Positions 16,698 through 60,420 of a stretch of 64,000 bases of DNA are shown piece after piece. Position 1 is the first letter of the stretch; every line of letters starts with the position of its first letter. Made by a program: the position numbers and the translations under genes. The stretch is from a bacterium (lineage in GTDB: Bacteria > Desulfobacterota > Deferrisomatia > Deferrisomatales > BM512): the NCBI GenBank assembly GCA_004322275.1, contig SCTA01000019.1:1-64000 (forward strand). Direction: 5' to 3'. The notes under the pieces were generated by a model. The model made no database searches. It was not told where the DNA came from and saw nothing but the letters and a program-made list of their open reading frames with translations.

Positions 16698-16956
16698 GTT
16701 TAATCCTCTGAAATAACCTGATCGAAGTGTTACTGCTTGTGGGTCTGGCCGCCCCACGCCCGGCCCCACTTTTTGTCGAAAAAGTGGGACAAAACTCGGC
16801 CCGGAAGGAGCCGCTCGCTCTACGAGCGACCGGTCGCTACGGCGGGGGCGTGAGGGGGCACCCGTTCGCTGCGCTCACTAAGACCCCCCCGCCGCCCTTT
16901 CCGCCTCCGCTCCCTGCGTCACCTACGGGCCATGTGGAGGACGAAAATATGGCTCG

Positions 16957-16987
16957 TCCAAAAACAGATTAACGAAATGTTTTTGGA
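16957..16987 (+). repeat. Variable-stem hairpin H3, copy 1 left
   Basis: TCCAAAAACA (16957-16966) pairs perfectly with TGTTTTTGGA (16978-16987). It is bracketed by GGCTCG and CTCGAAGGTA, which are conserved in all four arms, whereas the stem sequence is unique to this arm. Confidence 0.8.
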
Positions 16988-17045
16988 CTCGAAGGTAGAG
17001 TTGGCTACAGCTATTTGAGATACGTGTAAACAAATTACCTTCGAG

Positions 17046-17075
17046 CACACGAGATCAAATAATCCTTCTCGTGTG
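17046..17075 (+). repeat. Variable-stem hairpin H3, copy 1 right
   Basis: CACACGAGA (17046-17054) pairs perfectly with TCTCGTGTG (17067-17075), bracketed by TACCTTCGAG and CGAGCC. The stem is unrelated in sequence to the other three H3 stems. Confidence 0.8.
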
Positions 17076-17324
17076 CGAGCCTTCTTTTCGTTCCTTTCGG
17101 GGCCCGTACGCGGCGCAACGAGTGGAGGCGTCGGGCCGGCGCGGGGTCTTAACGGAGCGAAGCGTAGTGGGTGCCCCGTACGGCCCAGCCGGAACGAAGT
17201 GGTCGCTCATAGAGCGAGCGACGCGTCCGGGCCGATTTTTTGGTCACTTCTTTCTAAAAGAAGTGACTAGGGTGCGGGGCGAAGCCCGGCAAGTTGTAAA
17301 CGGTTTTCACAAATAAATTCAATT

Positions 17325-59854: not shown

Positions 59855-60420
59855 GCTGGGCTTCGCCCCGCGCCCCTTGTCACTTCTTTTAGAAAGAAGT
59901 GACCAAGAAATCGGCCCGGACCCGTCGCTCGCGCTTTAAAAAGCGCGACCACTTCGTTCCGGCTGGGCCGTACGGGGCACCCACTGCGCTTCGCTCCGTT
60001 AAGACCCCGCGCCGGCCCGACGCCTCCACTCGTTGCGCCGCGTACGGGCCCCGAAGGGGAACGAAAAGAAGGCTCGCAAATGAGCAAGGTAATTGTTGCT
60101 CATTTGCTCGAAGGTAGTTTCTCTACAGCTATTTTGAGATACATGTAGAAAAAATACCTTCGAGCCGATAACATAGAATTATCCTGTTTATCGGCGAGCC
60201 GTCCTTTCGTCCTTCCCGTGGCCCGTAGGTGACGCAGGGAGCGGAGGCGGAAAGGGCGGCGGGGGGGTCTTAGTGAGCGTAGCGAACGGGTGCCCCCTCA
60301 CGCCCCCGCCGCAGCGACCGGTCGCTCGTAGAGCGAGCGGAACCTTCCGGGCCGAGTTTTGTCCCACTTTTTCGACAAAAAGTGGGGCGCGGGTGCGGGG
60401 CGCGCCAAGCCCCGCAAAGG
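59855..60420 (-). repeat. Large mirror-arm palindromic element, copy 2
   Basis: This is the inverted counterpart of 16732-17293. The first part (59855-60106) corresponds to the right arm of copy 1 reversed, and the last part (60165-60420) to the left arm reversed. H3 hairpins are CAAATGAGCAA/TTGCTCATTTG (60077-60106) and CCGATAACA/TGTTTATCGG (60165-60194). The core CTCGAAGGTA (60107-60116), 38 bases, TACCTTCGAG (60155-60164) has the same length as in copy 1, and CTACAGCTATTT, GAGATAC and TGTA are shared. H1 hairpins lie at 59879-59903 and 60362-60386. Confidence 0.85.

Follow-up and report, generated by a model that had tools for sequence, protein, structure and literature searches.

Several classes of short hairpin repeats dispersed through bacterial genomes have been described, and those that most closely resemble the family reported here are REPINs, or REP doublets (Bertels and Rainey, PMC3116915), and enterobacterial BIMEs, which are mosaics of the REP types y, z1 and z2 (PMC8266576). 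Complementary stem changes are found among REP families, which form both homodimers and heterodimers and include GTAG- and CGTC-tagged superfamilies (PMC3733652). REP doublets are mostly heterodimers, which has no obvious explanation; protection from SbcCD has been proposed (PMC3733652). In addition, template switching during replication can create or repair both arms of a DNA hairpin in a single event, without selection (PMC8794818).

Here we describe H3, a hairpin that is carried in many copies by one bacterial genome. We consider it somewhat probable (about 0.55) that H3 is the hairpin module, exchangeable between copies, of a mosaic interspersed repeat that is non-coding and genus-restricted, in which pairing arises by template switching and exchange, and for which a host function is possible but unneeded.

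Two mosaic elements with facing hairpins

The window, a 64,000-nucleotide stretch of contig SCTA01000019.1, contains two elements of ~550 bp that each carry two H3 hairpins. Element 2 lies inverted in the window relative to element 1 and matches it with 88% identity (BLAST, E 6.6e-190). When read directly from both elements, the layout is GGCTCG-hairpin-CTCGAAGGTA-middle-TACCTTCGAG-hairpin-CGAGCC, with a flank of ~210-230 bp on each side of this core. In bracket orientation, each H3 unit reads GGCTCG-stem-loop-stem'-CTCGAAGGTA. The features are as follows.

16740..17290, plus strand: element 1, comprising flank A, H3, middle, H3 and flank B (BLAST of genome)
16740..16950, plus strand: outer flank type A of element 1; likeness to other copies stops ~225-270 bp from the hairpin
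16951..16997, plus strand: H3 hairpin of the TCCAAAAAC type with brackets GGCTCG and CTCGAAGGTA; arms TCCAAAAACA/TGTTTTTGGA
16998..17035, plus strand: middle segment of element 1, with inner ends TACAGCTAT and TACACGTAT tail to tail
17036..17081, minus strand: H3 hairpin of the CACACGAG type, with brackets; arms CACACGAGA/TCTCGTGTG
17082..17290, minus strand: outer flank type B of element 1, with an extra hairpin GTCACTTCTTT/AAAGAAGTGAC inside
59855..60407, minus strand: element 2, architecture as element 1, inverted (88% identity)
59855..60070, plus strand: outer flank type B of element 2
60071..60116, plus strand: H3 hairpin of the CAAATGAGC type, with brackets; arms CAAATGAGCAA/TTGCTCATTTG
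60117..60154, plus strand: middle segment of element 2
60155..60200, minus strand: H3 hairpin of the CCGATAAAC type, with one bulged A; arms CCGATAAACA/TGTTATCGG
60201..60407, minus strand: type-A outer flank of element 2, matching the L105:8343 flank (TCC stem) at 96.3% identity

An initial annotation of this DNA had reported four H3 hairpins whose arms are complementary, and direct reading confirms their positions, their sequences and the intact pairing of their stems, with a single unpaired A in the hairpin at 60155-60200. The GGATWATT-like loop sense that it ascribed to all four is present in three; the first loop instead reads GATTAACGAAA. Folding of the cores as single-stranded DNA predicts three arms on an outer stem (-41 and -45 kcal/mol), and folding as RNA yields the same four-way shape on both strands. 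The folding z-scores of the two elements are -7.5 and -10.9. Outer hairpins at 17232-17266, 16766-16788, 59884-59911 and 60355-60389 are also self-complementary, and their sequence differs by flank type.

Element 1 gave 75 BLAST matches in the 2.88-Mb genome. The bracketed-hairpin pattern has 80 exact matches in this genome, compared with none for the reversed pattern, and therefore the H3 pattern is not a chance occurrence. A count with relaxed brackets and a required stem gave 92 hairpins genome-wide, which are distributed among 27 full elements (two facing hairpins each) and 38 half-elements. Each half-element comprises an outer flank (A, B or C, ~250 bp), GGCTCG, the hairpin, CTCGAAGGTA and an inner end, whereas a full element consists of two half-elements arranged tail to tail, such that four-way cruciform folding is possible. 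The brackets of the 27 inverted pairs are separated by 23-44 bp in 26 instances and by 130 bp in one. Copies cease to resemble one another 225-270 bp away from the hairpin.

Flank types A and B are mutually related and are imperfect inverted repeats (74-79%); type C is distinct. All three types carry different yet self-complementary outer hairpins (e.g. CCCACTTTTT, GTCACTTCTTT and CCCCATCTTCTTTT), and therefore H3 is not the only feature of the element to show this pattern. Three half-elements (L079, L084 and L097) share one breakpoint, located between TACCTT and CGAG, which is the foot of the missing second hairpin. Exact matches to the hairpin-less site GGCTCGAAGGTA almost all represent the inner edge of CCG-type hairpins, whose stem ends in GG, and thus are uninformative regarding empty sites.

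Comparison with REP families and integron sites

The H3 family shares with REPINs the dispersal of hairpin repeats as inverted doublets and singlets at mostly extragenic positions, the abundance of inverted doublets (54 of the 92 hairpins), and the ability of a doublet to fold as one large structure. However, a REPIN is built from one short REP, whereas H3 halves are ~320 bp, occur with three flank types, and combine as different types within a doublet. Also unlike REPINs, the family resides in a genome that lacks a RAYT. REPIN singlets are clearly more diverged than doublets, whereas H3 singlets may be hardly more diverged than doublet members (pairwise identity 0.699 versus 0.734; stem mismatch rate 0.21 versus 0.20).

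The resemblance to BIMEs lies in the mosaic of hairpin types, their alternating orientation, the presence of different types in one element and, in a broad sense, modules that are arranged differently at different loci. H3 elements differ from BIMEs by lacking a GTAG tag 5' of the stem, by having perfect stems that lack a conserved bulge, by their long structured flanks and by the absence of TnpA-REP.

Stem variants with complementary changes are likewise known for GTAG- and CGTC-tagged REPs, and CGTC families are also without a dedicated transposase (PMC3733652). In contrast to these families, no tag is adjacent to the H3 stem. GTAG occurs only 3' of the stem, where it is formed by the bracket end plus the next base (43/92 copies), and CGTC (read outwards) resides 8-11 bases outside the bracket in 51/92 copies, unlike the CGTC-type REP tag located directly at the stem-loop end. 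The H3 stem of 9-11 bp and loop of 11-15 nt also depart from the 8-9 bp and 4-5 nt of CGTC-type REPs, and from the 2-5 nt loops of most GTAG/CGTC families. Moreover, H3 stems do not start with the two A-T pairs of CGTC elements; their first pairs are mostly C-G. The best reading is that the H3 repeat is BIME/REPIN-like and falls outside the known GTAG and CGTC families.

Integron attC sites also retain structure while sequence is not conserved. The H3 brackets lack the R-box motif of attC sites. With regard to MITEs, which have terminal inverted repeats and a target-site duplication, flanks A and B form imperfect inverted repeats (74-79%), and the one orthologous empty site, in G002, is too diverged to reveal a duplication.

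Pairing is maintained while stem sequences change

Among 43 distinct hairpins, 97.0% of paired cells are intact, compared with 72.1% after shuffling and at most 46% in slid controls. Both sides have changed at eight of the 10 stem pairs, and the covariation score is 0.643, versus 0.195 (shuffled) and at most 0.138 (slid), in agreement with RNAalifold. A tree was built from 70 distinct hairpin rows; like the flank tree, it is poorly supported and derives from a short alignment. It places 14 same-branch double changes at true pairs, compared with a summed null of ~2.8 and 0-5 for slid pairs. All 14 end in Watson-Crick pairs, and 30 one-sided events are placed on the same tree. Thus, the claim of the initial annotation that structure is kept while sequence changes holds: the covariation is real, and the check that it proposed, with covariation no better than expected from phylogeny as the adverse outcome, placed the observed values above both phylogeny-type and slid controls. 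Copies in which only one side of the stem has decayed, which it took as evidence to the contrary, do exist, as in the hairpin at C1:113264 with two changes confined to one arm, but these are few, and a perfect 8-bp stem is retained by 75/92 copies.

The description of the four window stems as unrelated is incorrect. All four carry A-T at stem positions 4 and 7, as do 91/92 copies genome-wide, and these two near-invariant pairs could mark sequence recognition. Furthermore, in the network that joins the 13 perfectly paired stem types, nine of the 12 links correspond to a single compensated base-pair step, and the minimum spanning tree has a total of 15, compared with a mean of 21 for the shuffled null. 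By our reading of the step list, double transversions, for which a G-T wobble is no possible intermediate, make up five of these nine steps.

Strong covariation is also what would be expected if H3 were a functional structure, either an mRNA 3'-end or terminator element or a protein-bound DNA hairpin, whose pairing is preserved by purifying selection and compensatory mutations. Within the TCC type, loops vary and stems are nearly fixed, which likewise favours this interpretation. We nevertheless regard it as doubtful, although it deserves serious consideration. The non-Watson-Crick cells include three G-T, six A-C (which read as G-T on the opposite strand) and 10 mismatches of other kinds. Neither strand is enriched in wobble pairs, and therefore there is no sign of selection at the RNA level. 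The initial annotation proceeded from preserved structure to function, and this step fails. Covariation does not entail function, because template switching can change both arms in one event without selection (PMC8794818), and pairing can thus arise without a functional role.

Gene context and searches for RNA elements provide additional information on a functional structure. No Rfam family was detected in the window at the gathering threshold. The H3 stem is followed by CTCGAAGGTA or CGAGCC rather than by a T-run, and terminator-like sites number 2 and 4, near the chance level of 1.0 and 1.4 in shuffles. The sole site of this kind that touches H3 is a weak 5-pair match (60088-60073). H3 was rejected as an intrinsic terminator, for which we looked for a GC-rich stem followed directly by a T-run. 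By an open-reading-frame heuristic used in place of a gene caller, full elements exhibit no clear preference for gene context (13 in tandem, five in convergent and three in divergent intervals, with six at contig edges). By the same heuristic, gene context could be assigned for 27 half-elements, 22 of which have their outer side facing the 3' end of a gene; this favours a 3'-end function or hints at either a role or a tolerated position. The lack of a match in those other genera of the order that the search covered also weighs against a functional structure.

Stems are exchanged between copies as blocks

Stems have been reassorted between copies as blocks and are replaced faster than their flanks diverge. 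For example, over 214 columns the type-A flank of window element 2, which carries a CCG stem, shares 96.3% identity with the flank at L105:8343, which carries a TCC stem. Among flank pairs that are at least 92% identical, 108/140 differ in stem type. Mapping stem type onto the poorly supported tree of 65 A/B outer flanks requires 33 changes. Within flank A there are 12 changes versus a shuffled mean of 11.6, and within flank B there are 22 versus 20.5, revealing no signal of stem type on the tree within either flank class relative to shuffled labels. Many of the apparent changes have probably spread by recombination, because stems are exchanged between copies as blocks.

Linkage analysis resolves three loosely linked blocks, which are the outer flank, the hairpin and the inner end. 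Stem columns are mutually linked (z up to ~30) and outer columns are linked to flank type (z up to 21), whereas inner columns are almost unlinked to flank type (z at most 3.1). Linkage of the hairpin to the nearest outside bases is weak but above zero. Some polarity remains, since TCC stems occur on 21/33 A flanks (p 2e-5) and preferentially beside the y inner end (p 6e-4), and therefore exchange is not free.

Reassortment of stems and flanks might instead be created by misassembly of repeats in this short-read genome, which is present as 45 contigs. Many contig ends lie inside elements, and the outer flanks of 15 hairpins are cut by a contig end. We consider this explanation very improbable, because 21 of the 27 full elements are embedded between genes of the same contig, the flank sequences of most copies diverge by several percent, neither covariation nor stem types depend on the attached flank, and a sister species independently exhibits the same principle. 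Six contig ends (C1, C3, C9, C10, C12 and C17) lie outside a hairpin at a distance of 138-142 bp, as though the assembly graph had forked near the bracket; such an arrangement would be consistent with different hairpins that share identical flanks.

Full elements combine unlike halves

None of the 27 full elements carries the same flank type on both halves, compared with 7.0 expected (p 0.00025). The same stem type was scored on both halves of one element, compared with 4.7 expected (p 0.02), although on inspection the number is zero: the sole case (L103, TCC-like plus CCGAAAAA) is a classifier misassignment. Given the flank types, the additional effect of stem unlikeness is no more than suggestive (p 0.06). 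The absence of alike halves may in part be an assembly effect, as perfect palindromes assemble badly, and in part may reflect ancestral polarity.

Distribution and possible mobility

Among 99 genomes searched, including that of the organism itself, related flanks were found in only one other member of the genus, with most matches at 71-75% identity. In this sister species, the brackets enclose other palindromes (CAAATCTTTTGATTTG, CCGGATTAAAATCCGG, CGCTAAAGCG, CGCTTCGCG and CGTTCCG), and strings of the form CTCG-x-CTCG-TGG-CTCG-x-CTCG occur occasionally. Neither the other ten genomes of the order nor viral contigs contain the CTCGAAGGTA...TACCTTCGAG core, and the element has no match in a plasmid collection. 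A viral or plasmid origin was rejected for lack of matches in these latter two collections. At one locus, the stop codons of orthologous convergent genes in another genome (G002) are ~8 bp apart, whereas here the interval is ~700 bp and contains an element.

These observations can be accommodated by a model wherein H3 stems serve as specificity tags of a mobile element. A putative hairpin-recognizing enzyme would cut at CTCG, and the stem types would be substrates exchangeable as cassettes. CTCG directly flanks the hairpin on both sides, the sister species carries strings in which CTCG brackets other palindromes, the hairpin is a separate linkage block, the family is dispersed and lineage-specific, and the orthologous G002 site is without the element. 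However, the Y1 transposase domain PF01797, which is present in 9/12 genomes searched, has no matches in either the genome of the organism (100% complete) or that of the sister species, and IS110-type enzymes are represented by a single 53-codon fragment. No transposase is found among neighbouring genes or between facing half-elements in the top 25 families listed, and no target-site duplication is established at the one orthologous site examined, where the empty G002 site is too diverged to reveal it. We therefore judge this model to be unlikely. A more elaborate version, in which the stem is a swappable tag, a putative hairpin-processing enzyme exchanges hairpins at CTCG between loci, and unlike tags are required in each element, is likewise unlikely.

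Three modes of mobilization were considered and rejected: a RAYT-driven REP system, as the present genome is without the Y1 domain; IS110-type mobilization, given the single fragment; and a transposon with cargo, since the genes between facing half-elements, like neighbouring genes in general, are ordinary, unknown or defence-related, with no transposase among the families listed. One such pair (L097:2489-4753; G000:C15) encloses a gene for a STAND NTPase of 754 aa that carries an Mrr-type nuclease domain (PADLOC PDC-S73), and one of these two half-elements is the remnant of a full element broken after TACCTT. Defence-like genes for a TIR protein and an HSDR_N protein are located by elements at L091:1-1366, L082:2568-4496 and other loci, and element neighbours also match GajB-like, HEPN_Apea, type II methyltransferase and RT-helicase proteins.

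DISCUSSION

We read the pairing of H3 stems as kept mainly by DNA-level processes and by exchange between copies; selection on the structure is possible, though unproven. In the series of events that we favour for this exchangeable module, a new stem type would originate by template switching at a DNA hairpin, with one arm serving as the template for the other; this would alter both sides in a single event. We infer template switching as the source of stems, no event having been caught directly. Recombination or gene conversion, acting inside the conserved brackets and nested inverted repeats, would then carry stem types from copy to copy. Elements with alike halves might be removed or blocked owing to the instability of long perfect palindromes, which we propose as the reason that those remaining have unlike halves. 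A host function, such as a 3'-end structure or a protein site, could be present but would not be needed.

Compensatory change is widely taken as proof of functional structure. In this family of ~90 copies, compensated stems are abundant yet are shuffled between nearly identical flanks. The H3 family thus offers a natural test of whether covariation can result from template switching and exchange alone, and it puts numbers on the heterodimer question of the REP literature.
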